64,000 bases of DNA, from the NCBI RefSeq assembly GCF_036669915.1, contig NC_089320.1:1282245-1346244 (forward strand). Reading direction: 5' to 3'. This stretch comes from Pocillopora verrucosa. Its lineage: Eukaryota > Cnidaria > Anthozoa > Scleractinia > Pocilloporidae. The notes under the pieces are model-generated. The model saw only the letters and a program-made list of their open reading frames with translations, was not told the origin of the DNA and made no database searches. A program made the position numbers and the translations under genes. This document shows, in pieces, positions 18,163 to 58,449 of the stretch. Position 1 is the first letter of the stretch, and the number at the start of each line of letters is the position of its first letter.

Positions 18163-19961
18163 ATGCAGATTAAACTTTTGTTGATCACCTGTTTCCTTCT
18201 TGGAGCCTGTACAGCCTCTAACCTGGCAGAAAAGCGGGAAGGTATTGGATCAAAATTATGAGAGCATGATTATTTTTCTCAGACCATTCCTTTTTCCACC
18301 CATTCAATGGTGTACCTTTACTAAGAACTCTTTTTTCCTTACCCAGATGCTCCTCTGAGTGAGGATACAGGTCACTTTAAGAAGCTACTTAGTTACTTTT
18401 TGAAGCATGATAAAAAATATTTTTACCAGAAAAGATAAGAATACCTATAAGAATTATCTTCAATACAGTTCTTACGAACGTGGATAAGAAAGCAACTCTG
18501 AGTCCCTTAGTACCGAGATTCTCTCCACTAAATTACCGGTCTGGTTGCATACAAATGAAAACCAGCGTATTCTACTTTGATTTTCACCTTTAATCTTTTG
18601 CCTTCTCTTTTCTTCCTAAATAGCCCAAGAAGTTGAAGATCTGAATGAAGAAGACTTCGAGACTGCCTCTGATAAATTTGACGGAGAGAATGATGAGGAA
18701 CCGGAGAATGAAAATGAAGCATTTGACGAGTTAAGAGATGAAGAAAACGAAAGGGATGCAGAGGAATTAGAAGAAATGAACGATGAAGACGAAGAGACAT
18801 GTAAGAGTTGATCAGTAAATTTAGTTAACAAGAAAACCGAGTTCTGTCTCCGCTTCGGAGATGAGATCCAAGTTATAATGTCAATGGGGAAAGTTTGGAA
18901 TATTTCTAACCATTGCCCTCGTGAAAGAACTGTTTAGGAGTCCTGGTAATATTCCGCATTAACCAAGATTTTTTAAAGCAGGTTTTCGTTGAGAACAATT
19001 GAAAGTTGGTATTAAATTCATCACGGGAAGGAAAAAAAGTTCAACTCTCGCAAGGTTTTTATTTCAATCGCAAACAAGAATCAAGGAAAAGAATACTGCT
19101 TGCTACACTGATTATACTGAAAGGATCCATATAATGTCTGAATTTGCCTTCTAATAGGGATTACCGGGCGATTTACTTCTTTTGGAAACAGAGATCAATT
19201 ACTTTCGAAAAGATGACATAATTATCAATGGAGTAAACCGTACTTTATAAACAGATGTTGTTATTTTTTGTTCCATCAGATGAAGTTTCTGAGGATCCAA
19301 GACCGGTGCCAAGAAAGTCAAGCAAGAAATATGGTAAAGCTATCCACATATCTTGATCTTTTATCTTGATCTTACATCTTGATTTATGAGCCATGAAAAT
19401 ATAGCATTTTATAGCTGTAACAGAAGATGGGAAATATGTGTTTGTTCATAAAATCGTACTAGAGAACGGTCAAAAGAAAACATCCGGCGCGCGCTGCAAA
19501 ATGTTTGAAGGATAATAATTACAAAGCCCCTATTTTACGGGAGAATGTGCTCCTACATTTGTCCTTGAACGTTATCTGTTCTTAGAAGCTCGCAGTTTTC
19601 CTCGAGATTCTCTCTCGGAAAGTGTTCGCATCTTGAAACAGATAAATTATCTTGTTAAATTTGGAGAGAAATTTTCATGAGTGGGCCTTCTGTCTGATTA
19701 TGTGATTTTTATGTTCGATAATCCATCGTTTAATATTAATGGTTCAAAGTATTTAATTTTGTAATTATTTTAGGTTATTTGTATGGGAAAGGAAAAGGCT
19801 ACCGCAAATACCGTAAAGGACTCTACCAAAAAAAACCTAGGAAAAGTTACAGTAAAGGCTACCGTAAATATCGGTTCCGAAAGGGTTACTACCCCAAAAA
19901 AGGAAAGGGATACGGCTACCGCTACGCCTACCGCTACCCATACTACTCCAGAGGTCATTAA
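18163..19961 (+). CDS. Gene A1: secreted precursor with acidic and Tyr/Lys/Arg-rich halves
   Basis: Not a family I recognise by name. Coding exons: 18163-18241, 18347-18370, 18624-18800, 19280-19333, 19774-19961; all introns are phase 1; 173 residues. Residues 1-18 form a signal peptide (MQIKLLLITCFLLGACTA), followed closely by AEKR, a likely dibasic cut. Exon 2 adds 8 residues. Exon 3 encodes 59 residues, 32 of them Asp/Glu. Exon 4 adds a linker EDPRPVPRKSSKKY. Exon 5 encodes 62 residues with 22 Lys/Arg, 17 Tyr, 11 Gly, no acid and no Cys. The precursor is close to charge-balanced. Release of the basic peptide at KK would make it a candidate antimicrobial, matrix or adhesive peptide; that is inference. 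An intron starts four bases after the stop (donor 19966), and the non-coding terminal exon starts at 20189 with AATAAA at 20283. The last base of exon 3 is T here, giving Tyr where the other copies have Asp or Gly. The exon 2 donor (GTCACT) is weak. Confidence 0.85.
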
Positions 19962-20188
19962 AATGGTGAGTCTTTCACAAATATCGATTAAAGATTGCTA
20001 CAAGCTTGCAATCGCGCAGAAAATCGAAAACATTTTTCAATCAAGAAATGCATGTACTAGTCCTTGTTGAGTTGTCTCTCTACTACTTATAACATGCCAT
20101 AGATAAGTATGCTTGTCTCAACTGGCCTCATTATTCGCTAAAGTAACTTTAGGAAGGACACTTCCTCATTTTATTTTTTCTATTTCAG

Positions 20189-20300
20189 GTTAGGCGAAAA
20201 TGATTAGACTGGACCAAGACTCACGCAAGATTAAGAAAGTTGCTTTAGAGTCATAGCTGAAAATGTAGATTTAAAAGCGTTAAATAAATTTTTTTTTTGG
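20189..20300 (+). other. Non-coding terminal exon and poly(A) signal, gene A1
   Basis: The acceptor TTTCAG is followed by GTTAGGCGAAAATGATTAG. AATAAA is at 20283-20288. The same exon occurs after all A and B copies. It has no coding role because the stop lies in exon 5. Confidence 0.65.
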
Positions 20301-20860
20301 CTCAGTTGACATCCTTGGTCTCTTTGTTTTTTACTTTCATTTTATTCATTTATTTATTTGTCTGCTGCAAACCGCAAGCTACACAATCCACATCGCAATT
20401 GACTAAATTCTGACATAAATGATTTGAATTTTTTCATCTTGTCCTAAACGTTTATCAGCACGCTTTATCCCTACTTTCCTGCGGTTTCAACCTTTAGTGG
20501 CATTTGTTTGTCTACAACAACCACGTAAAACAACATGAATGAAAGAAAATAAAACCAGTTTTTCAAAGACCCCTAAGGTCATGTATGATTAAACATTGTG
20601 ATACCTGATCGCAAAATAAGATAAGAAATCTTCAGTCCATACAAGATTGAAACGAAACTGAACAAGACGCTTGAATTTGTTGCGAGGCTGGGGCAATGTA
20701 AATTGATTATAGTGATTTTTATCAGGGTTGAATTTAATCCCCTATATATTATGTAAGTACTTTACCCCAAGGAATAAGCTGGAATAAATCGGCGCCTGAA
20801 AAACTAAGAACGTATTAAACATCGTTTTGTATATTCTATGAGTGCATCAAAGGTGTATGG
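20300..20860 (+). other. 3' flank of gene A1
   Basis: No gene. The GCTGCAAACCGCAAGCTACAC block is shared with gene B flanks and is found inverted at 15.4 kb. The part from 20500 to 20850 is specific to A-type flanks and to the inverted junction at 15.0-15.4 kb. Confidence 0.6.
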
Positions 20861-20943
20861 AGCACTACTCTGGCCCTTATTTAACAATAAAATACCGTAA
20901 CAGCTTTTAACAGTGTTTAAACGATGAGCAATAAAAATAACAA
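20861..20943 (-). pseudogene. Inverted ABC NBD2 relic, unit 1
   Basis: On the minus strand it reads [12 protein letters not shown] sequence, then LLLN and GQSSA, matching ABC exon 6 near 13790-13870 and the direct relic at 14931. Heavily mutated. Confidence 0.72.
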
Positions 20944-20951
20944 TAGAATAA

Positions 20952-21140
20952 AGTGGCAAATTTCCAGAAACATTGTGGTGCTGTGTCTGTGTGGAGTATA
21001 ACGAGATAATTTGGCTTTATCACCTAAGTTGATTATGTGAATTGGTAACCGTAAAGAGTTTCTAAAACTGTTGTTTCGGGCGTTAGCCCTTCGTCAGAGC
21101 GAATAGATGAGTTGTGGGTTCTGTGTGTGTGTGTGTGTTA
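20952..21140 (-). repeat. Second hammerhead-like repeat type with GT microsatellite, unit 1
   Basis: The GTGGTGCTG...GGTAACCGTAAAGAGTTTC flank is shared with the repeat near 29.4 kb. On the minus strand, 21097-21073 reads CUGACGA, A, GGGC-UAAC-GCCC hairpin, GAAAC, the words of a hammerhead core. No stem I partner or clear cleavage triplet is visible, so it is probably decayed. A GT run at 21121-21138 follows. Confidence 0.4.
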
Positions 21141-21366
21141 ATAAGCAGGGAACATGGGAACAGAGTAATGAGAAAAGACAAATTAGTTGAATTAAGAGCG
21201 TTTATGATACCATGGGGATTAGGGGTTTATTTACAGATTATTTTAAGTACACTTCCGCATATACTGGATTTTGATTCTAAAGTATTGGCATCATCCATGA
21301 AACGCATAACTGAAGGGTTGAGGCCGTCAAGGCCATTCTCTGCCCGGAGTTACAACCGTGTAAGCC

Positions 21367-21474
21367 ATGCAGATGAAATTTTATTGGATCCCAGTTTTCT
21401 TCTTGGAGTCTGTACCGCCCCTTACCTGCCGGAAAAGCAGGAAGGACTTTTGTCACAAATATAGGAGCATGAAC

Positions 21475-21505
<31 letters not shown>

Positions 21506-21986
21506 GTTAATGCATCCTTTTCCCATCAGCACATTGGTCATAATTTTGCTAATCCAATAGGCAAAGGTCAGTTTAAGTAACATCTTCATCAATCAAATAC
21601 ATTTAAGGTTTGCTTTCGCTCTTACGTTTAAGACCCAGGAAAAAATCATTTTCAGCTTTATCAGAAAAGAAAATTTATAGGATATATTTTATACAGTTTC
21701 ATCTCCAACGAGGACATAAAGCAATTCTAAAGTCGATTGTCTTTAGTTGATAGATAAGTGTAGTTTTAGTTGACTTGTGCATTTTTTTAATCATTTTTCT
21801 TGTAACACAGACCAAGGCGTTGAAGATGTAAGTGATGGAGAGTTTGAGACTGCTTCTGACGAATTGATGAAGATAATGATGAAAAACGGGAAAATGAAGA
21901 TGGAGAATTTGACGAAATGAGTCATGAAGAAGACGGGAGTGATGCTCAAGAATGAAAGGAAATAATCGATGAAGAAGACGAGACAA
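21367..21986 (+). pseudogene. psi1: broken third paralogue of the A/B family
   Basis: Exon 1-like sequence at 21367-21445 keeps the ATG and leader but has lost one base (frameshift after codon 8), and the donor GT has become GA. Exon 3-like sequence at 21811-21986 (acceptor ACACAG, donor GTGAAAG) encodes a diverged acidic segment starting QGVEDVSDGEFETASDE, with a one-base deletion and an in-frame TGA. Exons 2, 4 and 5 are not found. The upstream GCCCGGAGTTA block survives. A poly-T run lies at about 21477-21500 between the two exon relics. Confidence 0.85.
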
Positions 21987-24900
21987 GTGAAAGTTTATCA
22001 CTAAATTTAGTTGACAAGAAAACTGAGTTCTGTTTCCGTTCCTTGGATAAAAAAAAGATCCAAGTTACCATGCATATTTCTTCTCGTGGGACGGAACTCG
22101 TGAAATAGTTATCAAGGTTAAGAATACAGCTCCCAAAATTACACTCAGTACACTGATGATACTGGTAATAACCATATAACTTTTTGAGTCCTAAGGCTGG
22201 AACAAACTGGGGATACTCGAGCAATTTAGCTCTCCGTCAACAGAGAACAATAAGATGGGATGCGATGACACGATTGTTTGATGAATAAATCTTGACCCTT
22301 TTTTACTTCATTATTTGATAATTTTAACCAAATGTTTTATGAAAAGCTTTCCGGAAAAAAAAATAGCCATGGCCCTTTTTATTTCATTATTTGAGAATTT
22401 TACCCATATTTTCTAGCGTTCCGTTCATTTCTCAAGCAACACCAACCATACAAAATAACACTGATAGGAAGAAGAATATAACATTCGCAGAGGGGAGAAA
22501 AGCCGGTAGGGCAAGCGACAAAAAGACCATCCCCCCCGCCCCCCTTAGCTCAAGATCTGCCATTCATTGCGGTACATAAATGAAAGAAAACATAAGGAAG
22601 GACCTCGCGTAAGTAACCGAAAGCAAAGCGACAACGAGACAACGTTTCAGAAACATTTTCATGTGCCTCAAAGTTAAGAAAAAATACAAATGAAGTTTAA
22701 GCCCTTATTTGACTTTGCTTTATATCATCTCATGGATTTGACATGGGTGTTGAGTAGCACAAAAAATTAAAGTGTCGTAACGTCATGCGTTTAAATTTTG
22801 TGTGTATATTTGAACACCTGCTAGAGTCCGTTTTGAGTTGTCAGATCGACATCTTCGGCATTATCTAATAAAAGCTGAAAAGAGATGCTTTTACGCCTCA
22901 GATACTTTAATAATTTAAATAGTCTTAATTATTCTAAACTATTTATATATTCAGTTCATTCCGCGAGTCATGGCGATAAATCGAATATAGAGATAATTAA
23001 GTTCACAACGATTTCTTTTATCAAATGTTTAATCAACTATTCAAGCCATTAGTTGGTTATTTGACTAATATCTTGTAGCATTTATTTTCTTTTTTCATTC
23101 AGAATTTCATCACAATCAGAAGAATCTTCTAACGCTTCAATATCAGCTCGATATCACATCCAAATGAGAAAGACAAAAGACTAGATAGAGTGAACCATCT
23201 TAATGATTGACCCTAATCCCCCCTTACCCTAGAAGAACACAACCAAACACACTAAGAAATGAGATACAATCAAATAAGATGAAATTAAAGAAAATAGTGC
23301 CCTTGTTGATAAATTAAACATTCAAATGGTTAGACATCTTTTCTGTAACGTTTGAATTTTCCGACTTAGTGTTTAACTTTTATTCGAAGAATTGCAAGCA
23401 AAATTTTGCAAATAGATATGTGCTTTTAACCCTTCTTATCCAGAAATTCCCTTCATGTAAATAGGCTAGCTTGATTTTAACTCCATAATATTTAGGAGAG
23501 AAGGAAGATAAATTTGGTTCTTGCCTTGGGAAAAACCAGTGAACCGTGCTATGAGAAAAAACTAAGCAAACACAGGCTGCTGAGCAGCAGGTCCATCAAT
23601 GAGGAAAGATAATGGTACGTTTTATGGGTGATATTTACCACTATCTTTATTTATCAATTTATCTTTTTGTTCCTCAATCACTTTAATCAACAAAGTGACT
23701 AGAAATGACAGGATTATCGTCAAGAACGTCCGATATTCAATTTTCAGTTTAAGTAATATCGGAACGTTTGTCACTGAACGACCGATGGATGTTGACGTTA
23801 AACTCAATGCTGTACAAATATATTTAAAAAGGATCATTCTATGGTTTCCTTGATACCTTTACAGAACGTGAGAATCTATTTGGCTTTTCACATGTACTTT
23901 GCTATGGATTTTGTAGACAGATTTATTGGATTATTGCCCAATTGGGTAAAGTTTATGGACAGTGCAGCAATAAAACGCTTATCAACAAGAGAGCGATATG
24001 AACTAAGTCCGTTCACAATATGGAAATCCATATAGACACGTATTCTGGTAACAAATGATATGGTGGTCTAACTTAATTTCAATATATGATTGTAGACAGT
24101 TTTAGGAATCTTCCCAATTGTCCACTTCAGGAAGCTCTATGAGGTTTTTGCTCAATGTTGGCGCGCGTGCACCTTATGAAATCTGAAATTTAAAATATTC
24201 GAATTCCTTCATTCTCATTGCTCCTTTTTTCGTAACAAGTTCGACCTGCCCTCTCTTTTTCGTGATGGTTAAGAACGGTCCCTACTTCTAAACATTGGTT
24301 AAGGCTTTTTTTAAGGTTCATGTATCTTGCACGTCTTTGTCGCTCACAGGCTAATATTGCTGTGAGTCTAAATCTTTAAAACAATATACCAATTCTGCAA
24401 AAGACACATACATTCAGGTGAGATGAACAATATACACTGTAGTATGCTATGTCTTCAGTTAAGTATGACACGTCCCAATCGTGATAAAATTGGTTGTTCC
24501 CTGACGTATTAGAATTTGGTTTTGTTACCTTCTGCAGGCCATGTTTTAGTCTTACGAACTGATTATTTCTGTTCTTTTGTGAGCAGCTAATGTTTCTTCT
24601 TAAAAAAAACTGACTTTCAAAGACAGGTAGCCCCGATGATCTATTTAACACTTGGAGTCCATCTCAATTCTTAGGGTAACGTCACTGGAAAGCTCTTAAA
24701 TCATTTGGCAATTGCTAACAGCATTGAGGTTATCCTTTCTGGAAAGCCTGATGTGATTGAATTTCGTTTTGTTATATTTAGTAGGGTATTCTCTAATCTT
24801 GCAGAATACATAAATGAAAAAAAAAATTATTTCTGTGATTTTGTGAGCGACTACTTCCTCTTCAACCAAAACATGATTTTCAGGGACAGTTTTCCCCAAT

Positions 24901-26852: not shown

Positions 26853-28817
26853 ATGCAGATGAAACTTTTGTTCATCAGCTGTTTCCTTCTTGGAGCCTGC
26901 ACAGCCTCTTACCTGGCGGAAAAGCGGGAAGGTATTGGATCAAAATTATGAGAGCATGATTATTTTTATTAGATCATTCATTCCTTTTCCATCAGTCCAA
27001 TGGTGTTACTTTCACTAAGTACTCTTTTTTCCTTCCCTAGATGCTCCTCTGAGTGAGGATACAGGTCACTTTAAGAAGCTACTTAGTTAGTTTTTGAAGC
27101 CTGATTAAAAAAACGTTTTACCAAAAAAGATAAGAATACTCATAAGAATTATCTTCAATACATTTCTCACGAACGTGGATAAGAAAGCAACTCTAAGTCT
27201 CCTAGGATGTGCCAAGACTCTCTCCACCTAATTACCGGTCTGGTTGTATTCAAATTAAAACCAGCGTACTTTGATTTTCACATTTAATCGATTTTTTTTT
27301 TTGCTTTCTTTTTCCCCATAAAATAGCCCAAGAAGTTGAAGATCTGAATGACGAAGACTTCGGGACTGCCTCTGATAACTTTGACAGAGAGAATGACGAG
27401 GAGCCGGAAAATGAAGATGAAGCCTTGGAAGAATTAAGAGATGAAGAAAACGAGAGGGATACTAAGGAATTAGAAGAAATGAACGATGAAGAAGAAGAGA
27501 CAGGCAAGCGTTGATCATTAAATTTCGTTAACAAGAAAACCGAGTTCTGTCTTCGCTTCGGAGATGAGATCCAAGTTACAATGTCAATGGCGAGAGTTTG
27601 GAATTTTTCTACTCATCGGGAAGAAACTCGTGAAAGAATCGTGTAGGATAAACAGGGGTAACTGTAATTGTCATTTTCTGCATCAACCAGGTTTTTTAAG
27701 CAGGTTTTGGTTGACAACAGTTGAAAGTTGGTATAAAAGGTAGTATGGGAAGGAACAAAAGCTGACTCTTGCGAGATTTATATTTCAATCGCAAAATAAG
27801 AATCAGGGAAAGGATACTGCTCGCTACACTGATTATACCGAAAGGATCCATAAAATGTCTGAATTTGTCTTATCATAGGGATTACGGGGCGATTTACTTC
27901 CTTGGAAACAAAGATCAATTACGTGGGACATGATGACAAAATTATCAATGAAGTAAACTGTGAGAAAAGCACTTTCTAACCAGATGTTATGATTTTTGTT
28001 CCATCAGATGAAGAAGAAGTTTCTGAGGATCCAAGACCGGTGCCAAGAAAGTCAAAAAAGAAATATGGTAAAGTTATTCAACATTTCTTGATCTTACATC
28101 TTGATCTTATATCTTGATTTTTGATCCATGAAACGTTCTTGCTCGCGCACGATTGGTATTCAGTCAAGTGGCCGAATATCCCTCAGCTAAAACTGGGGCA
28201 TAGTCAAGGCTATCACCCAACTGATAGGTTTTAATTCAAGAAGATATAGCAGAAAATGGGAATTATCCGTTTTTTCATAAAATCGTACTGAAGAACGCTC
28301 AAAAGAAAACATCCGGCACGCGCTGCAAAATGTTTGAAGGACAATAATTACAAAGCCTCTATTTTAAACTAAATTGTACTCGTGTATTTGTCCAGATAAT
28401 GGAACAGATAATGTCCGAGGATAAATATCCCTGTATATTTTACGTCAAATAGAGGCTATTGTTTCCACCTTGCCAAGATATAATTAAAGCAACATCATTA
28501 TTACATTACGCAATTATTTTGTTAAATTTGGAAGAAATCTGAATGAATGGGCCTTTTGTCTGATTCTGAGATTTTTGTGTTCGATAATCCATCGTTTGAT
28601 ATTAATGGTCTAAAGTTTTTTTTTTTTTTTCGTAATTATTTTAGGTTATTTGTATGGGAAAGGAAAAGGCTACGGCAAGTACCGTAAAGGACCCTACCGA
28701 AAAAAACCTAGGAAAAGCTACCGCAAAGCCTACCGTAAATATCGTGGCCGAAAGGGTTACTACCCAAAAAAAGGAAAAGGTTACGGCTACCGCTACGGCT
28801 ACCGCCACCCCTACTAG
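26853..28817 (+). CDS. Gene B1: secreted precursor with acidic and Tyr/Lys/Arg-rich halves
   Basis: Paralogue of gene A1 with the same five-exon design: 26853-26931, 27041-27064, 27327-27503, 28008-28067, 28645-28817; 170 residues. Signal peptide MQMKLLFISCFLLGACTA, AEKR site, 59-residue acidic exon 3 (31 Asp/Glu), and exon 4 two codons longer than in A (DEEEVSEDPRPVPRK, then KKY). Exon 5 encodes 57 residues with 22 Lys/Arg, 15 Tyr and 12 Gly. Intron 3 has a GC donor (CAG, then GCAAGC) rather than GT. The stop TAG sits where gene A has TAC, removing the last residues; a second in-frame TAG lies 12 bases on. The terminal non-coding exon starts at 29060, with AATAAA at 29153. Function inferred as for A1. 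Confidence 0.85.
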
Positions 28818-29059: not shown

Positions 29060-29170
29060 GTTAGACGAAAATGATTAGACTGGACCAAGACTCACGCAAG
29101 ATTAACAAAGTTGCTTTAAAGTCATAGCTGAAATTGTAGCTTAAAAGCGTTAAATAAATTTTTTTGGTTC
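29060..29170 (+). other. Non-coding terminal exon and poly(A) signal, gene B1
   Basis: The donor after the stop is at 28837; the acceptor TTTCAG precedes 29060; AATAAA is at 29153-29158. Homologous to the A1 terminal exon. Confidence 0.65.
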
Positions 29171-29790: not shown

Positions 29791-29829
29791 GCTGCTCGAT
29801 AGTTTTTATTTAAAAAAAAATAATTAAAA

Positions 29830-33047: not shown

Positions 33048-33049
33048 AG

Positions 33050-34833: not shown

Positions 34834-36644
34834 ATGCAGATTAAACTTTTGTTGATCACCTGTTTCCTTTTTGGAGCCTGTACAGCCTCTTACCTGGCAG
34901 AAAAGCGGGAAGGTATTGGATCAAAATTATGAGAGCATGATTATTTTTCTCAGACCATTCCTTTTTCTACCCATTCAATGGTGTACCTTTACTAAGAACT
35001 CTTTTTTCCTTACCCAGATGCTCCTCTGGATGAGGATACAGGTGAGTTTAAGAAGCTACTTAGTTAAGTTTTGAAGCATGATTAAAAATATTTTTACCAG
35101 AAAAGATAAGAATACCCATAAGAATTATCTTCAATACAGTTCTTACGAACGTGGATGAGAAAGCAACTCTGAGTCCCATAGTACCGAGATTCTCTCCACT
35201 AAATTACCGGTCTGGTTGCATACAAATGAAAACCAGCGTATTCTACTTTGATTTTCACCTTTAATCAGTTTTTTTTGCCTTCTCTTTTCTTCCTAAATAG
35301 CCCAAGAAGTTGAAGATCTGAATGAAGAAGACTTCGAGACTGCCTCTGATAAATTTGACGGAGAGAATGATGAGGAACCGGAGAATGAAAATGAAGCATT
35401 TGACGAGTTAAGAGATGAAGAAAACGAAAGGGATGCAGAGGAATTAGAAGAAATGAACGATGAAGACGAAGAGACAGGTAAGAGTTGATCAGTAAATTTA
35501 GTTAACAAGAAAACCGAGTTCTGTCTCCGCTTCGGAGATGAGATCCAAGTTATAATGTCAATGGGGAAAGTTTGGAATATTTCTAACCATTGGGAAGAAA
35601 CTCGTGAAAGAACTGTTTAGGAGTCATGGTAATATTCCGCATTAACCAAGATTTTTTAAAGCAGGTTTTCGTTGAGAACAATTGAAAGTTGGTATTAAAT
35701 TCATCACGGGAAGGAAAAAAAGTTCAACTCTCGCAAGGTTTTTATTTCAATCGCAAACAAGAATCAAGGAAAAGAATACTGCTCGCTACACTGATTATAC
35801 TGAAAGGATCCATATAATGTCTGAATTTGCCTTCTCATAGGGATTACCGGGCGATTTACTTCTTTTGGAAACAGAGATCAATTACTTTCGAAAAGATGAC
35901 ATAATTATCAATGAAGTAAACCCTACTTTATAAACAGATGTTGTTATTTTTTGTTCCATCAGATGAAGTTTCTGAGGATCCAAGACCGGTGCCAAGAAAG
36001 TCAAGCAAGAAATATGGTAAAGCTATCCACATATCTTGATCTTTTATCTTGATCTTACATCTTGATTTATGAGCCATGAAAATATAGCATTTTATAGCTG
36101 TAACAGAAGATGGGAAATATGTGTTTGTTCATAAAATCGTACTAGAGAACGGTCAAAAGAAAACATCCGGCGCGCGCTGCAAAATGTTTGAAGGATAATA
36201 ATTACAAAGCCCCTATTTTACGGGAGAATGTGCTCCTACATTTGTCCTTGAACGTTATCTGTTCTTAGAAGCTCGCAGTTTTCCTCGAGATTCTCTCTCG
36301 GAAAGTGTTCGCATCTTGAAACAGATAAATTATCTTGTTAAATTTGGAGAGAAATTTTCATGAGTGGGCCTTTTGTCTGATTATGTGATTTTTATTTTCG
36401 ATAATCCATCGTTTAATATTAATGGTTTATAGTATTTAATTTTGTAATTATTTTAGGTTATTTGTATGGGAAAGGAAAAGGCTACCGCAAATACCGTAAA
36501 GGACTCTACCAAAAAAAACCTAGGAAAAGTTACAGTAAAGGCTACCGTAAATATCGGTTCCGAAAGGGTTACTACCCCAAAAAAGGAAAGGGATACGGCT
36601 ACCGCTACGCCTACCGCTACCCATACTACTCCAGAGGTCATTAA
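34834..36644 (+). CDS. Gene A2: secreted charge-segregated precursor
   Basis: Near-twin of A1; exons 34834-34912, 35018-35041, 35301-35477, 35963-36016, 36457-36644; 173 residues. The last exon encodes a peptide identical to that of A1. Differences: Phe for Leu in the signal peptide (CFLFGACTA), Tyr for Asn after it, Asp for Ser in the microexon (DAPLDEDT), and the normal Asp rather than Tyr at the exon 3/4 junction. The microexon donor here is GTGAGT, a consensus site, against GTCACT in A1 and all B genes. The terminal exon starts at 36872, with AATAAA at 36966. This is the best-formed gene A in the window. Confidence 0.87.
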
Positions 36645-36980: not shown

Positions 36981-37551
36981 TGGCTCAGTTGACATCCTTG
37001 GTCTCTTTGTTTTTTACTTTCATTTTATTCATTTATTTATTTGTCTGCTGCAAACCGCAAGCTACACAATCCACATCGCAATTGACTAAATTCTGACATA
37101 AATGATTTGAATTTTTTCATCTTGTCCTAAACGTTTATCAGCACGCTTTATCCCTACTTTCCTGCGGTTTCAACCTTTAGTGGCATTTGTTTGTCTACAA
37201 CAACCACGTAAAACAACATGAATGAAAGAAAATAAAACCAGTTTTTCAAAGACCCCTAAGGTCATGTATGATTAAACATTGTGATACCTGATCGCAAAAT
37301 AAGATAAGAAATCTTCAGTTCATACATGTAGGAAATAAGATTGAAACGAAACTGAACAAGACGCTTGAATTTGTTGCGAGGCTGGGGCAATGTAAATTGA
37401 TTATAGTGATTTTTATCAGGGTTGAATTTAATCCCCTATATATTATGTAAGTACTTTACTCCAAGGAATAAGCTGGAATAAATCGGCGCCTGAAAAACTA
37501 AGATCGTATTAAACATCGTTTTGTATATTCTATGAGTGCATCAAAGGTGTA

Positions 37552-37637
37552 TAGAGCACTACTCTGGCCCTTATTTAACAATAAAATACCGTCACAGCTT
37601 TTAACAGTGTTTAAACGATGAGCAATAATAATAACAA
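37552..37637 (-). pseudogene. Inverted ABC NBD2 relic, unit 2
   Basis: Same relic as 20861-20943. Confidence 0.72.
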
Positions 37638-37644
37638 TAGAATA

Positions 37645-37835: not shown

Positions 37836-38058
37836 AGCAGGGAACATGGGAACAGAGTAATGAGAAAAGACAATTTAGTTGAATTAAGAGCTTTTATGAT
37901 ACCATGGGGATTAGGGGTTTATTTACAGATTATTTTAAGTACACTTCCGCATATACTGGATTTTGATTCTAAAGTATTGGCATCATCCATGAAACGCATA
38001 ACTGAAGGGTTGAGGCCGTCAAGGCCATTCTCTGCCCGGAGTTACAACCGTGTAAGCC

Positions 38059-38668
38059 ATGCAGATGAAATTTTATTGGATCCCAGTTTTCTTCTGGGAG
38101 CCTGTACCGCCCCTTACCTGCCGGAAAAGCTGGAAGGACTTTTGTCACAAATATAGGAGCATGACCTTTTTTTTTTTTTTTTTCCTTGTTAATGCATCTT
38201 TTTCCCATCAGCACATTGGTCATAATTTTGCTAATCCAATAGGCAAAGGTCAGTTTAAGTAACATCTTCATCAATCAAATACATTTAAGGTTTGCTTTAG
38301 CTCTTACGTTTAAGACCCAGGAAAAAAACATTTTCAGCTTTATCAGAAAAGAAAATTTATAGGATATATTTTATACAGTTTCATCTCCAACGAGGACATA
38401 AAGCAATTCTAAAGTCGATTGTCTTTAGTTGATAGATAAGTGTAGTTTTAGTTGACTTGTGCATTTTTTTAATCATTTTTCTTGTAACACAGACCAAGGC
38501 GTTGAAGATGTAAGTGATGGAGAGTTTGAGACTGCTTCTGACGAATTGATGAAGATAATGATGAAAAACGGGAAAATGAAGATGGAGAATTTGACGAAAT
38601 GAGTCATGAAGAAGACGGGAGTGATGCTCAAGAATGAAAGGAAATAATCGATGAAGAAGACGAGACAA
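38059..38668 (+). pseudogene. psi2: broken third paralogue
   Basis: Exon 1-like 38059-38137 and exon 3-like 38493-38668 with the same frameshifts, lost donor and in-frame TGA as psi1. The lesions therefore predate the duplication of the unit. Confidence 0.85.
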
Positions 38669-41600
38669 GTGAAAGTTTATCACTAAATTTAGTTGACAAG
38701 AAAACTGAGTTCTGTTTCCGCTCCTTGGTTAAAAAAAAGATCCAAGTTACCATGCATATTTCTTCTCCGTGGGACGGAACTCGTGAAATAGTTATCAGGG
38801 TTAAGAATACAGCTCCCAAAATTACACTCAGTACACTGATGATACTGGTAATAGCCACATAACTTTTTGAGTCCTAAGGCTGGAACAAACTGGGGATACT
38901 CGAGTAATTTAGCTCTCCGTCAACAGAGAACAATAAGATGGGATGCGATGACACGATTGTTTGATGAATAAATCTTGACCCTTTTTTATTTCATTATTTG
39001 ATAATTTTAACCAAATGTTTTATGAAAAACTTTCCGGGAAAAAAAATAGCCATGGCCCTTTTTATTTCATTATTTGAGAATTTTACCCATATTTTCTAGC
39101 GTTCCGTTCATTTCTCAAGCAACACCAACCATACAAAATAACACTGATAGGAAGAAGAATATGACATTCGCAGAGGGAAGAAAAGCCGGTAGGGCAAGCG
39201 ACAAAAAGACCATCCCCCCCGCCCCCCTTAGCTCAAGATCTGCCATTCATTGCGGTACATAAATGAAAGAAAACATAAGGAAGGACCTCGCGTAAGTAAC
39301 CGAAAGCAAAGCGACAACGAGACAAAGTTTCAGAAACATTTTCATGTGCCTCAAAGTTAAGAAAAAATACAAATGAAGTTTAAGTCCTTATTTGACTTTG
39401 CTTTATATCATCTCATGGATTTGACATGGGTGTTGAGTAGCACAAAAAATTAAAGTGTCGTAACGTCTTGCTTTTAAATTTTGTGTGTATATTTGAACAC
39501 CTGCTAGAGTCCGTTTTGAGTTGTCAGATCGACATCTTCGGCATTATCTGATAAAAGCTGAAAAGAGATGCTTTTACGCCTCAGATACTTTAATAATTTA
39601 AATAGTCTTAATTATTCTAAACTATTTATATATTCAGTTCATTCCGCGAGTCATGGCGATAAATCGAATATAGAGATAATTAAGTTCACAACGATTTCTT
39701 TTATCAAATGTTTAATCAACTATTCAAGCCATTAGTTGGTTACTTGACTAATATCTTGTAGCATTTATTTTCTTTTTTCATTCAGAATTTCATCACAATC
39801 AGAAGAATCGTCTAACGCTTCAATATCAGCTCGATATCACATCCAAATGAGAAGGACAAAAGACTAGATAGAGTGAACCATCTTAATGATTGACCCTAAT
39901 CCCCCCTTACCCTAGAAGAACACAACCAAACACACTAAGAAATGAGAAACAATCAAAGAAGATGAAATTAAAGAAAATAGTGCCCTTGTTGATAAGTTAA
40001 ACATTCAAATGGTTAGACATCTTTTCTGTAACGTTTAAATTTTCCGACTTAGTGTTTAACTTTTATTCGAAGAATTGCAAGCAAAATTTTGCAAATAGAT
40101 ATGTGCTTTTAACCCTTCTTATCCAGAAATTCCCTTCATGTAAATAGGCTAGCTTGATTTTAACTCCATAATATTTAGGAGAGAAGTAATATCGAAACGT
40201 TTGTCACTGAACGACCGATGGATGTTGACGTTAAACTCAATGCTGTACAAATATATTTAAAAAGGATCATTCTATGGTTTCCTTGATACCTTTTCAGAAC
40301 GTGAGAATCTATTTGGCTTTTCACATGTACTTTGCTATGGATTTTGTAGACAGATTTATTGGATTATTGCCCAATTGGGTAAAGTTTATGGACAGTGCAG
40401 CAATAAAACGCTTATCAACAAGAGAGCGATATGAACTAAGTCCGTTCACAATATGGAAATCCATATAGACACGTATTCTGGTAACAAATGATATGGTGGT
40501 CTAACTTAATTTCAATATATGATTGTAGACAGTTTTAGGAATCTTCCCAATTGTCCACTTCAGGAAGCTCTATGAGGTTTTGGCTCAATGTTGGCGCGCG
40601 TGCACCTTATGAAATCTGAAATTTTAAATATTCGAATTCCTTCATTCTCATTGCTCCTTTTTTCGTAACAAGTACGACCTGCCCTCTCTTTTTCGAGATG
40701 GTTAAGAACGGTCCCTACTTCTAAACATTGGTTAAGGCTTTTTTTAAGGTTCATGTATCTTGCACGTCTTTGTCGCTCACAGGCTAATATTGCTGTGAGT
40801 CTAAATCTTTAAAACAATATACCAATTCTGCAAAAGACACGCACACATTCAGGTGAGATGAACAATATACACTGTAGTATGCTATGTCTTCAGTTAAGTA
40901 TGACACGTCCCAATCGTGATAAAATTGGTTGTTCCCTGACGTGTTAGAATTTGGTTTTGTTACCTTCTGCAGGCCATGTTTTAGTCTTGCGAACTGATTA
41001 TTTCTGTTCTTTTGTGAGCAGCTAATGTTTCTTCTTAAAAAAACTGACTTTCAAAGACAGGTAGCCCCGATGATCTATTTAACACTTGGAGTCCATCTCA
41101 ATTTTTAGGGTAACGTCACTGAAAAGCTCTTAAATCATTTGGCAATTGCTAACAGCATTGAGGTTCTCCTTCCTGGAAAACCTGATGTGATTGAATTTCG
41201 TTTTGTTATATTTAGTAGGGTATTCTCTAATCTTGCAGAATACATAAATGAAAAAAAAATTATTTCTGTGATTTTGTGAGCGACTACTTCCTCTTCAACC
41301 AAAACATGATTTTCAGGGACAGTTTTCCCCAATGATTTATTCAGCACCTAGAGCCCATTAATTTGTTTTAGGCATCTATTCTGATAACTCTGACTTACTC
41401 ACATGGAGAGAATCCTTGCAGCGCTTCCGTCTGGACTTCTATTACAATCTGATCTAATAAAAAGCAAATTTTCGAACTTCGCCGATGTAACAAGGGAAAA
41501 AACAATAGTGCATTCTAGCTCTGAAAAAAGATTCCTCAAGGTATCAGACCCCCACAAACAAAAACACCGTCATTGCTTGAGTAAAACAGATATCAGTAGA

Positions 41601-43286: not shown

Positions 43287-45315
43287 ATGCAGATGAAACT
43301 TTTGTTGATCAGCTGTTTCCTTCTTGGAGCCTGCACAGCCTCTTACCTGGCGGAAAAGCGGGAAGGTATTAGATCAAAATTATGAGAGCATGATTATTTT
43401 TATTAGATCATTCATTCCTTTTTCCATCAGTCCAATGGTGTTACTTTCACTAAGTACTCTTTTTTCCTTCCCTAGATGCTCCTCTGAGTGAGGATACAGG
43501 TCACTTTAAGAAGCTACTTAGTTACTTTTTGAAGCCTTATTAGAAAAAAGTTTTACCAAAAAAGATAAGAATACTCATAAGAATTATCTTCAATACATTT
43601 CTCACGAACGTGGGTAAGAAAGCAACTCTAAGTCTCCTAGGATGTGCCAAGACTCTCTCCACCTAATTACCGGTCTGGTTGTATTCAAATTAAAACCAGC
43701 GTACTTTGATTTTCACATTTAATCGATTTTTTTTTGCTTTCTTTTTCCCCATAAAATAGCCCAAGAAGTTGAAGATCTGAATGACGAAGACTTCGGGACT
43801 GCCTCTGATAACTTTGACAGAGAGAATGACGAGGAGCCGGAAAATGAAGATGAAGCCTTGGAAGAATTAAGAGATGAAGAAAACGAGAGGGATACTAAGG
43901 AATTAGAAGAAATAAACGATGAAGAAGAAGAGACAGGCAAGCGTTGATCATTAAATTTCGTTAACAAGAAAACCGAGTTCTGTCTTCTCTTCGGAGATGA
44001 GATCCAAGTTACAATGTCAATGGCGAGAGTTTGGAATTTTTCTACTCATCGGGAAGAAACTCGTGAAAGAATCGTGTAGGATAAACAGGGGTAACTTTAA
44101 TTGTCATTTTTTGCATCAACCAGGTTTTTTAAGCAGGTTTTGGTTGACAACAGTTGAAAGTTGGTATGAAAGGTAGTATGGGAAGGAACAAAAGCTGACT
44201 CTTGCGAGATTTATATTTCAATCGCAAAATAAGAATCAGGGAAAGGATACTGCTCGCTAGACTGATTATACCGAAAGGATCCATAAAATGTCTGAATTTG
44301 TCTTATCATAGGGATTACGGGGCGATTTACTTCCTTGGAAACAAAGATCAATTACGTGGGACATGATGACACAATTATCAATGAAGTAAACTGTGAGAAA
44401 AGCACTTTCTAACCAGATGTTATGATTTTTGTTCCATCAGATGAAGAAGAAGAGTCTGAGGATCCAAGACCGGTGCCAAGAAAGTCAAAAAAGAAATATG
44501 GTAAAGTTATTCAACATTTCTTGATCTTACATCTTGATCTTATATCTTGATTTTTGATCCATGAAACGTTCTTGCTCGCGCACGATTGGTATTCAGTCAA
44601 GTGGCCGAATATCCCTCAGCTAAAACTGGGGCATAGTCAAGGCTATCACCCAACTGATAGGTTTTAATTCAAGAAGATATAGCAGAAAATGGGAATTATC
44701 CGTTTGTTCATAAAATCGTACTGAAGAACGCTCAAAAGAAAACATCCGGCACGCGCTGCAAAATGTTTGAAGGACAATAATTACATTTACACGAAAATGT
44801 ACTCGTATATTTGTCCTTTGAAGTTCACAGGTTTCCTTGAGCTTCGCTCTCGGAAACTGTTCGCAGACTCTATTTTAAACTAAATTGTACTCGTGTATTT
44901 GTCCAGATAATGGAACAGATAATGTCCGAGGATAAATATTCCTGTATATTTTTACGTCAAATAGAGGCTATTGTTTCCACCTTGCCAAGATATAATTAAA
45001 GCAACATCATTATTACATTACACAATTATTTTGTTAAATTTGGAAGAAATCTGAATGAATGGGCCTTTTGTCTGATTCTGAGATTTTTATGTTCGATAAT
45101 CCATCGTTTGATATTAATGGTCTAAAGTTTTTTTTTTTTTCGTAATTATTTTAGGTTATTTGTATGGGAAAGGAAAAGGCTACGGCAAGTACCGTAAAGG
45201 ACCCTACCGAAAAAAACCTTGGAAAAGCTACCGTAAATATCGTGGCCGAAAGGGTTACTACCCAAAAAAAGGAAAAGGTTACGGCTACCGCTACGGCTAC
45301 CGCCACCCCTACTAG
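43287..45315 (+). CDS. Gene B2: secreted charge-segregated precursor, shortened basic exon
   Basis: Copy of B1; exons 43287-43365, 43476-43499, 43760-43936, 44441-44500, 45155-45315; 166 residues. Exon 5 has lost 12 bases in frame (a Lys-Ala-Tyr-Arg step, one internal repeat period) and has Trp for Arg in KKPWKSY. Exon 4 has Glu for Val (DEEEESEDP). Intron 3 uses a GC donor, and the stop is at the same TAG as B1. Intron 4 carries a block at about 44785-44875 missing from B1 and B3 but similar to one in A genes. The terminal exon starts at 45558, with AATAAA at 45652. Confidence 0.84.
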
Positions 45316-49270: not shown

Positions 49271-49275
49271 TTAAC

Positions 49276-50390: not shown

Positions 50391-51429
50391 ATGCATATGA
50401 AACTTTTGTTGATCACTTGTTTCCTTCTTGGAGCCTGTACAGCCTCTTACCTGGCAGAAAAGCGGGAAGGTGTTGGATCAAAATTATGAAATTTTTACCA
50501 GAAAAGAAAAGAATACTGATAAGAATTATCTTCAATACAGTTCTTACGAGCGTGGATAAGAAAGCAACTCTGAGTCTCTTAGTGCCGAGACTCTCTGCAC
50601 TTAATTACCGGTCTGGTTGTATTCAAATGAAAACCAGCGTATTCTACTTTGATTTTCACCTTTAATCAGTTTTTGTTGCCTTCTCTTTTCTCCCTAAATA
50701 GCTCAAGAAGTTAAAGATCTGAATGATGAAAACTTCGAGACTGCCTCTGATAAATTTAACGGAGAGAATGATGAGGAACTGGAGAATGAAAATGAAGCAT
50801 TTGATGAGTTAAGAGATGAAGAAAACGAGAGGGATGCTGCGGAACTAGAAGAAATGAACGATGAATAAGAAGAGACAGGCAAGAGTTGATCATTAAATTT
50901 CGTTAACAAGAAAACCGAGTTCTGTCTCCGCTTCGGAGATGGGATCCAAGTTATAATGTCAATGGCGAAAGTTTGGAATTTTTCTACTCATCGGGAAGAA
51001 ACTCGTGAAAGAAATGTTTAGGAGTAATGGTTATTTTCCGCATTAACCAAGATTTTTTAAAGTAGGTTTTGGTTGAGAACAGTTGAAGGTTAGTACTAAA
51101 TTCATCACGGGGAGGAACAAAAGTTCAACTCTTGCGAGGTTTTTATTTCAATCGCAAATAAGAGTCAAGGAAAAGAATACTGCTCGCTGCTCTGATTATA
51201 CTGAAAGGATCCATATAATGTCTGAATTTGCCTTCTCATAGGGATTACCGGGCGATTTACTTCTTTAGGAAACAAAGATCAATTACTTTGGAAATGATGA
51301 CATAATTATCAATGAAGTAAACCGTAAGAAACATACTTTACAAACATATTTTTTTGTTTGTTCCATCAGATGAAGATGAAGTTTCTGAGGATCCAAGACC
51401 GGTGCCAAGAAAGTCAAAAAAGAAATATG
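50391..51429 (+). pseudogene. A3: pseudogene of gene A lacking the basic exon
   Basis: Exon 1 (50391-50469) is intact (MHMKLLLITCFLLGACTA). The microexon is deleted together with most of its two introns. Exon 3 starts at 50702 and has an in-frame TAA at 50866-50868 and a GC donor. Exon 4 (51370-51429) has the sequence DEDEVSEDP. Exon 5, which encodes the basic peptide, is deleted: at about 51635 intron 4 joins directly to the intron before the terminal exon (51706). The AATAAA of that exon is also lost. If transcribed, it could make only a leader plus a shortened acidic segment. Confidence 0.9.
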
Positions 51430-51705
51430 GTAAAGTTATTCAACATATCTTGATCTTTTATCTCGATTTTACATCTTGATTTATGATCCATGAAGATATA
51501 GAATTTTATAGCTGTAACAGAAGATGGGAAATATGTGTTTGTTCATAAAATCGTACTGGAGAACGGTCAAAAGAAAACATCCGGCGCGCGCTACAAAATG
51601 TTTGAAGGATAATAATCACAAAGCCTCTATTTTCTCAACTGGCCTCATTACTCACTAAAGTAACTTTAGGAAGGACACTTCCTCACTTTATTTTTTCTAT
51701 TTCAG

Positions 51706-51800
51706 GTTAGGCGAAAATGATTAGACTGGACCAAGAATCACTCAAGATTAACAAAGTTGCTTTAAAGTCATAACTGAAATTGTAGCTTTAAAAGCGTTAA
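51706..51800 (+). other. Terminal-exon relic of A3
   Basis: Acceptor and body are present, but the AATAAA is reduced to AAATTT near 51798. Confidence 0.6.
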
Positions 51801-52382
51801 ATTTTTTTTGGTTCAGTTGACATCCTTGGTCTCTTTGTTTTTTACTTTCATTTTATTCATTTATTTAGTTGTCTGCTGCAAACCGCAAGCTACACAATCC
51901 ACATCGCAATTGACTAAATTCTTAAATAAATGATTTGAATTTTTTCATCTTGTCCTAAATGTTTATCAGCACGCTTTATCACTACTTTTCTGCGGTTTCA
52001 ACCTTTAGTGGCATTCGTTTGCCTACAACAACCACATAAAACAACATGAATGAAAGAAAATAAAACCAGTTTTTCAAAGACCCCTACAGTCATGTATGAC
52101 TAAACATTGTGATACCTGATCGCAAATTAAGATAAGAAATCTTCAGTCCATACATATACGAAATAGGATTGAAACGAAACTGAACAAGACGCTTAAATTC
52201 GTTGCGAGGCTGGTGCAATGTAAATTGATTATAGTGATTTTTATTGCTGAGGGTTGAATTTAATCCCCTATATATTATGTAAGTACTTTACTCCAAGGAA
52301 TAAGCTGGAATAAAGCGGCGCCTGAAAAATTAAGATCGTATTAAACATCGTTTTGTATATTCTATGAGTGCATCAAAGGTGT

Positions 52383-52469
52383 ATGGAGCAGTACTCTGGC
52401 CCTCATTTAACAATAAAATACCGTCACAGTTTTTAACAGTGTTTAAACGATGAGCTGAATAATAATAAC
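52383..52469 (-). pseudogene. Inverted ABC NBD2 relic, unit 3
   Basis: Same relic as 20861-20943. Confidence 0.7.
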
Positions 52470-52479
52470 AAGAGAATAA

Positions 52480-52670: not shown

Positions 52671-52897
52671 AGCAGAGAACATGGGAACATAGTAACGAGA
52701 AAAGACTAGTAAAAGATTAGTTGAATAATTTATGATACCATGGGGATTAGGGGTTTATTTACAGATTATTTTAAGTACACTACCGCATATATTGGATTTT
52801 GATTGTAAAGTATTGGCATTATCCATGAAACACATAACTGAAGCGTTGAGGCCGCCAAAAAGGCCATTCTCTGCCCGGAGTTACAACCGTTTAAGCC

Positions 52898-52976
52898 ATG
52901 CAGATGAAATTTTATTGGATCCCAGTTTTCTTCTTGGAGCCTGTACCGCCCCTTACCTGGCGGAAAAGCAGGAAGG
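52898..52976 (+). pseudogene. psi3: exon 1 relic of the third paralogue
   Basis: Same frameshift and lost donor as psi1 and psi2. A deletion at about 53265 removes exon 3 and joins to sequence equivalent to 23670 in unit 1. Confidence 0.8.
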
Positions 52977-55179: not shown

Positions 55180-56533
55180 AAAATTACTTCAGTCAGAGAA
55201 GTAAAAACTTCCTTTTGTTTATGTATAAAGAAAGATTTACATGCTCTTCTGATCATTTTCATTGTTGATATCCCAACACAGCAGTGATCAACAGGAATAT
55301 CGTTACATGTATTCAATATAGACCTAAATACTAATCTAGTAATAGATCCAATTTTACGCACTTGGTTTCCTCTAATTGTTTGCTCCTTACGCTGTTGTCA
55401 AGCATCAACAATCAATCATTAGTTCTTTTAGACGTTGCTCTCTCAACAATTCTTTAATTAAAACTGATCGACAACAGTCTTGCCCTTTTTTGATAAGGGA
55501 AGAGTTCCTATTTTGATGCTATAAGTGCAATATCTAAGCAGCGAGACATTTTCATCGAAGTAGTTCAGTTTTCGGTGAAGCTTTGAAATTGAAGCTACCC
55601 AGGACATAAAATCAAATATTTTAGACGAGAAAATTGTCGAACTATGTAACACCAATTTGTCATAGAGAATTCTAAATACAACGTTTCAGAATTTAAATAA
55701 TGTACCCAGAAAAACCTTCCTCTCGTATCAATACTCTATTTCTATTTATTCTACTCGTTGAGGCTTCCGTAAAATAATGTAAAATAATGCTGTTCCGTAG
55801 ACCTGTTCTAGTTACTCCTTTTGACTGTTTGCCATTCGCCCTACCTAGATGCTTAACCCATAGGAAAGAGGTGAAATTTCGGTTTGGTAGGATAATTGCA
55901 ATATTTAGCCGAAGGTCATTTCATCGAGATGCTAATCAGTGAGACCCTTTCATCAAATTTGCGCAGGAACAAAATATTAGAAATATCGAGACCCTATCAA
56001 AAAATTAGAAATATCAGACGAGTAAATTGTCCAACCATGTAACATGAAATTGACGTATTAGTAAGTCTAAATATAACTGTTTTTAATTTAGAAGTTCGAT
56101 TATCGGCTGAGATTTCAAAATAATTAAAACGAAAAGAGAGACATCTCGTATCACAACATTATTCCAAACTAAAAGGCTTCTGTCTGATAGTGTTGTTCCG
56201 TAAAATTGTTCTTGATGCAGTTTATTGCCTCCCGTGCGCACTAACTTTAAGGTCAACCTCTCTATTCTCTCTATTTTTAGCCTTAGACTATTAAGAGTGC
56301 TTGAAGAGTGCTTCGACACCTCCATGCCTTTGTCTTGTCACCTATTGCACCATATAATACTAGTTTTATTTTCCTGTTTTTAATCCTTCCCTAATTAATT
56401 TCATGCAAAGCATGCAATGTAATGTATTGAGTTTTGGTTCTACATAGTATTGGCCTCTCTATCAATCTCATAAATGGGCCGATGAGGGTGTCACCAGAGC
56501 CATTCTCTGCTCGGAGTTAAAACGGATTCAGCC
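55180..56533 (+). promoter_or_regulatory. Upstream region of gene B3
   Basis: Like the B1 upstream region, with an extra GAGACCC...AGAAATATCG segment near 55945-56000 that repeats part of the block. CATAAATGG at 56469-56477. Confidence 0.5.
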
Positions 56534-58449
56534 ATGCAGATGAAACTTTTGTTGATCAGCTGTTTCCTTCTTGGAGCCTGCACAGCCTCTTACCTAGCGG
56601 AAAAGCGGGAAGGTATTGGATCAAAATTATGAGAGCATGATTATTTTTATTAGATCATTCATTCCTTTTTCCATCAGTCCAATGGTGTTACTTTTACTCA
56701 GTACTCTTTTTTTCCTTACCTAGATGCTCCTCTGAGTGAGGATACAGGTCACTTTAAGAAGCTACTTAGTTACTTTTTGAAGCCTGATTAAAAAAAAGTT
56801 TTACCAAAAAAGATAAGAATACTCATAAGAATTATCTTCAATACATTTCTCACGAACGTGGATAAGAAAGCAACTGTAAGTCTCCTAGGATGTGTCCCGC
56901 GTACTTTGATTTTCACATTTAATCGATTTTTTTTTTTACTTTCTTTTTCCCCATAAAATAGCCCAAGAAGTTGAAGATCTGAATGACGAAGACTTCGGGA
57001 CTGCCTCTGATAAATTTGACAGAGAGAATGATGAGGAGCCGGAAAATGAAGATGAAGCCTTTGAAGAATTAAGAGATGAAGAAAACGAGATGGATACAAA
57101 GGAATTAGAAGAAATGAACGATGAAGACGAAGAGAGAGGCAAGCGTTGATAATTAAATTTCGTTAACAAGAAAACCGACTTCTGTCTTCGCTTCGGAGAC
57201 GAGATCCAAGTTACAATGTCAATGGCGAGAGTTTGGAATTTTTCTACTCATCGGGAAGAAACTCGTGAAAGAATCGTGTAGGATAAACAGGGGTAACTTT
57301 AATTGTTATTTTCTGCATCAACCAGGTTTTTTAAGCAGGTTTTGGTTGACAACAGTTGAAAGTTGGTATGAAAGGTAGTATGGGAAGGAACAAAAGCTGA
57401 CTCTTGCGAGATTTATATTTCAATCGCAAAACAAGAATCAAGGAAAAGAATAATGCTCGCTACACTGATTATACCGAAAGGATCCATATAATGTCTGAAT
57501 TTGTCTTATCATAGGGATTACGGGGCGATTTACTTCCTTGGAAACAAAGATCAATTACGTGGGACATGATGACACAATTATCAATGAAGTAAACTATGAG
57601 AAAAGCACTTTCTAACCAGATGTTATGATTTTTGTTCCATCAGGTGAAGAACAAGTTTCTGAGGATCCAAGACCGGTGCCAAGAAAGTCAAAAAAGAAAT
57701 ATGGTAAAGTTATTCAACATTTCTTGATCTAACATCTTGATCTTATATCTTGATTTTTGATCAATGAAACATTCTTGCTCGCGCACGATTGGTATTCAGT
57801 CAAGTGGCCGAATATCCCTCAGCTAAAACTGGGGCATAGTCAAGGCTATCACCCAACTGATAAGTTTTAATTCAAGAAGATATAGCAGAAAATGGGAATT
57901 ATCCGTTCGTTCATAAAATCGTACAGAAGAACGCTCAAAAGAAAACATCCGGCACGCGCTGCAAAATGTTTGAAGGACAATAATTACAAAGCTTCTATTT
58001 TAAACTAAATTGTACTCGTGTATTTGTCCAGATAATGGAACAGATAATGTCCGAGGATAAATATTCCTGTATATTTTTACGTCAAATAGAGGCTATTGTT
58101 TCCACCTTGCCAAGATATAATTAAAGCAACATCATTATTACATTACACAATTATTTTGTTAAATTTGGAAGAAATCTGAATGAATGGGCCTTTTGTCTGA
58201 CTCTGAGATTTTTATGTTCGATAATCCATCGTTTGATATTAATGGTCTAATGTATTTTTTTTCGTAACTATTTTAGGTTATTTGTATGGGAAAGGAAAAG
58301 GCTACGGCAAGTACCGTAAAGGACCCTACCGAAAAAAACCTAGGAAAAGCTACCGCAAAGCCTACCGTAAATATCGTGGCCGAAAGGGTTACTACCCAAA
58401 AAAAGGAAACGGTTACGGCTACCGCTACGGCTACCGCCACCCCTACTAG
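56534..58449 (+). CDS. Gene B3: secreted charge-segregated precursor
   Basis: Copy of B1; exons 56534-56612, 56724-56747, 56962-57138, 57644-57703, 58277-58449; 170 residues. Signal peptide MQMKLLLISCFLLGACTA. Differences from B1: Arg for Thr at the end of exon 3, Gly for Asp at the exon 3/4 junction (exon 4 starts GEEQVSEDP), and Asn for Lys in the last exon (KKGNGYGYRY). Intron 3 has the GC donor; intron 2 lost about 60 bp. The stop is the same TAG. The terminal exon starts at 58692, with AATAAA at 58786. Confidence 0.85.

Follow-up and report, generated by a model that had tools for sequence, protein, structure and literature searches.

A gene cluster of the stony coral Pocillopora verrucosa encodes a family of apparently secreted precursors in which a strongly acidic first half is joined to a Tyr-, Lys-, Arg-, and Gly-rich basic second half. 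The window analysed is the 64,000-nucleotide stretch C9:1282245-1346244 on the forward strand; 100 kb of flanking sequence was added to it, so that the region examined is 164 kb. The cluster consists of 13 copies (c1-c6, A-F, and c7) across ~127 kb and extends past the window on both sides. Nine copies are intact (c1, c2, c4, c6, A, B, C, D, and F) and four are broken (c3, c5, c7, and E). In the 353-Mb genome (52 contigs), at least 13 matches to the acidic exon are found (16 candidates scored, expect value up to 1e-4), and the basic exon gives at least 13 rows at 12 places (13 candidates scored, expect value up to 0.1). All of them lie on contig C9 between 1221824 and 1348535. As the two exons are matched nowhere else in these searches, the cluster is a single locus. 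Our preferred reading, which is tentative and somewhat short of an even chance, is that the locus produces a granule-packed, secreted two-block polyampholyte. The initial annotation left the role of the family open, which is still right. A role in glue, mucus, or defence may be considered.

The open copies share one exon order. Exon 1 encodes a signal peptide (called by eye and not with a predictor) and the AEKR leader. It is followed by exon 2 (24 nt), exon 3 (acidic), exon 4 (the linker PRPVPRKS..KKY), exon 5 (the Tyr-rich basic block), and a non-coding exon 6. Earlier residue counts are reproduced: exon 3 has 59 residues, 31-32 of them Asp or Glu in the five open copies of the window, and exon 5 of copy A has 22 Lys/Arg and 17 Tyr among 62 residues and no acid. 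In all nine intact copies the basic peptide is 53-62 residues long, with 14-17 Tyr, 19-22 Lys/Arg, and 8-12 Gly; it contains no acidic residue, no Cys, and no KR or RR, and its net charge is +19 to +22. For the acidic part (residue 26 onward) the net charge is -28 to -33 if exon 2 is included and -25 to -30 if it is skipped. Adding the basic part leaves every intact copy at -7 to -13 in the first case and at -4 to -10 in the second. The precursor is net acidic and not balanced, and the term 'charge-balanced', used for it at first, has to be given up. Over the narrow range of charges covered by the nine copies, acidic and basic charge show no correlation (r = -0.13, P = 0.74, n = 9, counted with exon 2). 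The charge split itself, in an apparently secreted precursor, is borne out.

The composition of both halves is extreme for this region. When the 934 open reading frames (ORFs) of at least 50 amino acids in the 164 kb are ranked by their most acidic 50-residue stretch, the 13 copies of exon 3 take the top 13 positions with 24-30 Asp/Glu per 50; the next in rank, a relic, has 15. When acid-free 50-residue stretches are ranked by Lys, Arg, and Tyr content, the top 11 are 11 of the 12 exon-5 places (32-36 of 50), and the next has 16. A chance origin of the charged halves is rejected by this ranking.

Both halves also show constraint. Identity of the coding sequence between copy types is 0.91-0.92, compared to 0.81-0.86 for the pooled introns (0.917 and 0.813 for A and F). 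Between A and B, the nonsynonymous divergence (dN) is 0.069 and the synonymous divergence (dS) 0.170. Pooled over the nine copies, the ratio of nonsynonymous to synonymous differences (pN/pS) is 0.48 overall. By segment it is 0.34 in exon 3, 0.39 in the part encoding the signal peptide and leader, and 0.53 in exon 5, and it is undefined in exon 2. The kinds of change were examined in six tests, which use a minimum change count and a 2:1 transition bias; their P values are uncorrected for multiple tests, and gene conversion may let copies share changes. In exon 3, acid loss is seen in 4 of 24 changes where 11.5 are expected (P 0.0016), and acid loss or base gain in 7 where 12.3 are expected (P 0.025). 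Since acid losses are rarer than mutation predicts, the acidic half is under constraint of its own. In exon 5, none of 18 changes is an acid gain (2.8 expected, P 0.049) and none a gain of acid or Cys (5.5 expected, P 0.0014), and Tyr is lost twice (5.2 expected, P 0.07). These tests speak for a first half rich in acid and a second half free of both acid and Cys. An alternative reading frame for exon 5 was considered and rejected on splice phase and on synonymous changes. The Tyr/Lys frame has the most synonymous changes, 8 of 17 against 4-4.5 of 17 between A and B (17 differences being a small number by itself), and 7 against 4-4.5 between C and F.

The five-exon coding design proposed in the initial annotation holds in part. 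Its DNA is present in all five open copies of the window with agreeing splice phases; acceptors are AG, and donors are GT apart from the exon 3 donors of B, D, and F, which are GC. In alignments the 24-nt exon 2 is held by every copy except E and c7, but among the NCBI models it is included only in that of C and skipped in those of c3 and c4. The exon 2 donor is GTGAGT in C only and GTCACT in the other copies, including c3 and c4. In a rough weight matrix GTCACT scores 4.73 and the exon 1 donor 4.79, about equal strength. NCBI models thus support the design with exon 2 for C alone, and in the copies with GTCACT its inclusion may occur as well. The NCBI evidence used here consists of the protein models themselves.

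The model P0001 (isoform X1) is letter-for-letter identical to copy C as spliced here. P0003, named 'mitotic apparatus protein p62-like', is copy c4 without exon 2, and P0005, named 'major centromere autoantigen B-like', is copy c3 without exon 2. P0002, named 'RNA helicase ddx56', is a close relative that matches no copy exactly. The three names seem misleading, because the members start like secreted proteins and the precursors of A and B have no Pfam family above the cut-off. The NCBI names of the loci of c3 and c4 (L016 and L017, C9:1239795-1248464) appear to be low-complexity misnomers. Another model, P0004 (isoform X2), joins exons 1-3 of C to exon 4 and exon 6 of the pseudogene E. This join spans ~16 kb, the exons of E being downstream of C; it would come either from splicing of transcripts that read through the array or from wrongly mapped reads. 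When exon 4 is spliced directly to exon 6, a stop follows immediately after KKYG in all five open copies of the window.

The processing of a two-block polyampholyte would start with removal of the signal peptide, after which the short leader would be trimmed at the sole KR. In each of the nine intact copies KR occurs once, at residue 24 in the leader, and neither KR nor RR occurs in exon 5; a furin-like enzyme should therefore trim the leader only. The Glu/Asp block, with its net charge of -25 to -33, would then be neutralised by the Tyr-rich polycation of +19 to +22, and the reverse, and the two would form a dense complex (coacervate) in secretory granules. It is reported that sandcastle-worm adhesive granules pack a polyanion with a polycation and that Mfp-3S self-coacervates (PMC4275877), and a part of Tyr together with Coulomb forces in phase separation has also been described (PMC13339138). 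In seawater, charge and Tyr contacts would hold the polycation on polyanionic surfaces, which may be mucin, substrate, mineral, or microbes, and the protein would serve as a component of mucus, attachment, or matrix. The polycation may be released by cleavage between KK(K) and YGYLY, but this step is not required.

Several features of the basic block agree with this. The lack of KR and RR is unlikely under shuffling (P 0.011-0.045 in the five window copies) and, being common to the nine intact copies, fits keeping the block whole. Release of a free exon-5 peptide is hypothetical: KR occurs in the leader alone, the residues at the junction before YGYLY are KK or KKK in all nine, and 6-8 further RK or KK sites lie inside the peptide of each copy. 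Release would need a KK-cutting enzyme, by which the internal sites could be cut too. Hydrophobic residues (I, L, V, M, F, W, and A) are only 2-4 of 53-62, and the grand average of hydropathy (GRAVY) is about -2 in the nine copies. Judged by its composition, the basic part is non-amphipathic, and with so few hydrophobics and a low GRAVY it fits a Tyr-rich polycation better than a helix that forms pores. Both the acid excess and the acid-only model P0004 suggest that the acidic half is more than a mask.

Four observations weigh against the polyampholyte reading. Losses of basic residues in exon 5 match the mutational expectation (6 against 5.7, P 0.67), so the precise number of positive charges is held only loosely. 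Of all segments, it is the linker in which pN/pS is highest (0.70), although 13 of its 16 columns are invariant. The P0004 model that joins C and E exons may be a mapping artefact. Lastly, the high salt of seawater weakens charge complexes.

A close rival, possible but more doubtful, is that the family encodes antimicrobial precursors: the acidic half would mask a cationic peptide, which is freed at KK(K)-Y and kills or binds microbes in mucus. The architecture speaks for it. Hydra antimicrobial peptide families are reported to be mostly charge-bipartite with clustered paralogues, the periculins and arminins being confined to the genus (PMC10945409), and anionic propieces are described as usual in precursors of such peptides (PMC2866484). 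KK or KKK stands directly before YGYLY in every intact coral copy, and four broken copies of 13 fit birth-and-death evolution. However, a convertase cutting at KK would reach the internal RK and KK sites as well, and the basic part has few hydrophobics and no Cys. Charge balance is reported for defensins and cathelicidins (PMC4571063), but the acid half over-compensates here, and the charge-balance correlation of cathelicidins given in the same source is not seen among the nine copies. With pN/pS at 0.53, exon 5 gives no sign of positive selection. The polyampholyte is put slightly ahead of the antimicrobial precursor because the coral peptides damicornin and AmAMP1 have six Cys, because the charge balance of defensins and cathelicidins is not seen, and because in composition the basic half more closely resembles Tyr/Lys adhesive polycations, for which worm cement and Mfp-3S give packing precedents.

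It is unlikely that the family belongs to the skeletal or basal-plate matrix, with the acidic block binding calcium or nascent aragonite and the Tyr-rich block anchoring the protein to other matrix. An acidic, apparently secreted stony-coral protein whose acid content is constrained would suit such a role. Calcification, however, is common to stony corals, which counts against it given the apparent restriction of the family: no species-named relative outside Pocillopora and no match to a known family was found.

Still less probable is a packing protein of cnidocysts or other specialised cells, or a bioactive peptide precursor whose short leader is cut at KR. The single KR just past the signal peptide in all nine intact copies would allow this, but the basic part is Cys-free and lacks a run of repeated amidated peptides, and homology to known families is not found. 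Cnidarian neuropeptide precursors carry repeated short peptides flanked by basic sites and an amidation Gly; with one KR only and no such run in the basic exon, the coral precursors do not have this layout.

That the locus is repeat-derived with spurious coding potential, and no gene family of consequence, is very improbable: exon 5 of A does have a short TACCGC-type repeat and is open in one other plus frame and one minus frame, but the coding sequence is conserved above the introns, the Tyr/Lys frame has the most synonymous changes, and three NCBI models correspond to C, c3, and c4 and a fourth to the C/E splice.

No named family could be assigned initially, and this stands. In Pfam, precursors A and B have sub-cut-off matches only, and in the PDB two weak matches are found (expect values 0.82 and 6.7). 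The protein database searched contains 5.8 billion proteins; the search was word-seeded with three queries, by which distant relatives could be missed. It gave 10, 20, and 4 matches at expect values up to 0.01, 10, and 10 (8000 candidates scored in the second). All species-named matches are from Pocillopora verrucosa. The rest are unnamed 'ena' ORFs of exon pieces and one jgi protein, which has an expect value of 0.59 and looks unrelated. No species-named relative from another coral is found in this exact-word-seeded database, in which the presence of Stylophora and Acropora was unchecked, and no named mollusc protein is among the matches. As far as the protein search reaches, and no further, the family appears restricted to the genus. 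Homology to a described family, named beforehand as evidence against the initial annotation, was sought by protein search and not found. In the literature, coral together with 'mitotic apparatus protein p62' gave one paper only, on giant clam. The three misnomers are absent from the main text of PMC12960093, and passages of PMC4178034, PMC11820242, and PMC10236652 name no such family. A description of the family was not found in the literature searched. The genes are real, conserved, and modelled by NCBI, and they are unnamed or probably misnamed.

Within the window, exon 1 is found at high similarity in six copies. The five open ones described initially (A, B, C, D, and F) are confirmed, and a dead one, E, is added; all lie on the plus strand. 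Copy A (18163-19961) has exons 1-5 open: exon 1 with the signal peptide and AEKR leader (18163..18241), the 24-nt microexon 2 with donor GTCACT, whose use is uncertain (18347..18370), the 59-residue acidic exon 3 (18624..18800), the linker exon 4 up to KKY (19280..19333), and exon 5 with the Tyr/Lys/Arg/Gly peptide (19774..19961). Its non-coding exon 6 begins with GTTAG at 20189..20234, where the given end is provisional. The exon 6 counterparts in the other open copies start at 29060, 36872, 45558, and 58692 on the same strand and likewise bring a stop when exon 5 is skipped. Copy B (26853..28817) has exons at 26853-26931, 27041-27064, 27327-27503, 28008-28067, and 28645-28817. Copy C (34834..36644) has them at 34834-34912, 35018-35041, 35301-35477, 35963-36016, and 36457-36644. 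Copy D (43287..45315) has them at 43287-43365, 43476-43499, 43760-43936, 44441-44500, and 45155-45315, its exon 5 being four residues shorter than that of B. Copy F (56534..58449) has them at 56534-56612, 56724-56747, 56962-57138, 57644-57703, and 58277-58449. The pseudogene E (50391..51740, the given end being provisional) is without exons 2 and 5, and a stop interrupts its exon 3; exon 4 of E is at 51370-51429 and exon 6 starts at 51706. As to the other broken copies, in c3 exon 4 is not found and exon 5 has a frame shift, c5 has a stop in exon 3, and c7 lacks exon 2 and goes out of frame late in exon 5. Between and beside the copies there are decayed relics of exons 1 and 3, one exon-1-like piece being reversed. 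On the plus strand, a relic of a further copy at 21363..21995 and another relic at 38055..38677 contain exon 1- and exon 3-like pieces, and one at 52891..52976 is exon-1-like.

The array in 17000-63153 is made of repeats of ~16.5 kb: two units with an A-type and a B-type gene, so that A pairs with C and B with D, and a third, shorter unit with E and F. In the long alignments, the first and second units agree at 93-98% and the third at 90-96%. Since introns are 98.4% identical between A and C and 98.8% between B and D, the array has grown recently. Related elements at 29838-32571, 46342-49224, and 59480-61645 in the repeat units look by eye like retrotransposons without long terminal repeats, and their endonuclease-like ORF pieces are 93-100% identical. 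An ABC transporter gene (8175-13916) lies within the cluster between c6 and A; its ABC_tran domain is in 9720-11171, and by eye it is ABCC/MRP-like. On the minus strand, the repeats contain short, broken pieces of its C-terminal end (20825-20947, 37519-37641, and 52351-52455), and a 97%-identical piece is reversed at 14292-14576. An Rfam scan of the window gave no match, and there is no transfer RNA in the window.

The family is compact, its charge split is extreme and conserved, and within the reach of the searches it is confined to one lineage. Such a family offers a testable case of the origin and packing of a young secreted protein. Should it be adhesive, it would offer molecular access to coral settlement or mucus; should it be antimicrobial, it would be a new class of Cys-free coral defence peptides.

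The comparison with Hydra made in the initial annotation is fair on architecture. Arminins and periculins are reported to have a signal peptide, a mostly bipartite charge, clustered paralogues, and restriction to the genus (PMC10945409), and the arminin layout (signal peptide by eye, anionic region, cationic C-terminal region) is present in all nine intact coral copies. No sequence relation to arminins is found in the protein searches, however, and the coral basic part is Tyr/Gly-rich, hardly hydrophobic, and charged +19 to +22. According to PMC11767717, arminins are alpha-helical, unlike what 2-4 hydrophobics in 53-62 residues and a GRAVY of about -2 would suggest for the coral peptide; as its composition is not amphipathic, the link to helical arminins is weakened. 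Damicornin of Pocillopora and AmAMP1 of Acropora are likewise small secreted coral proteins, but they are reported to have six cysteines (PMC11767717), while exon 5 of this family is Cys-free in all nine copies. Neurosecretory-cell proteins of coral and Clytia planulae are also short, secreted, and lineage-restricted, with an antimicrobial or adhesive role suggested (PMC12225738). These taxon-restricted planula proteins are described there as having conserved cysteines, unlike the coral basic part, and a link to this locus is not implied.

With mussel proteins of the fp-3/fp-5 type the basic half shares high Tyr with Lys/Arg and Gly and few or no acids. A Tyr- and Lys/Arg-rich polycation is common to these, to sandcastle-worm cement proteins, and to the coral family, and in worm cement polyanion and polycation are reported to be packed with one another (PMC4275877, PMC4220933). 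Homology to the mussel and worm adhesives is not found, and the coral family has both charges on one chain. The anion also differs, being phosphoserine in sandcastle-worm cement and Glu/Asp in the coral family. By analogy, the locus might be a single-chain, one-genus, one-locus version of the two-polyelectrolyte glue of the sandcastle worm, in which skipping of exon 5 would add acid-only chains and splicing would tune the charge ratio; in this specific form the idea is improbable. The kind of protein, a charge-split secreted precursor, is known; what is new is the pairing of an over-compensating acidic block with a polycation that is rich in Tyr and free of Cys.

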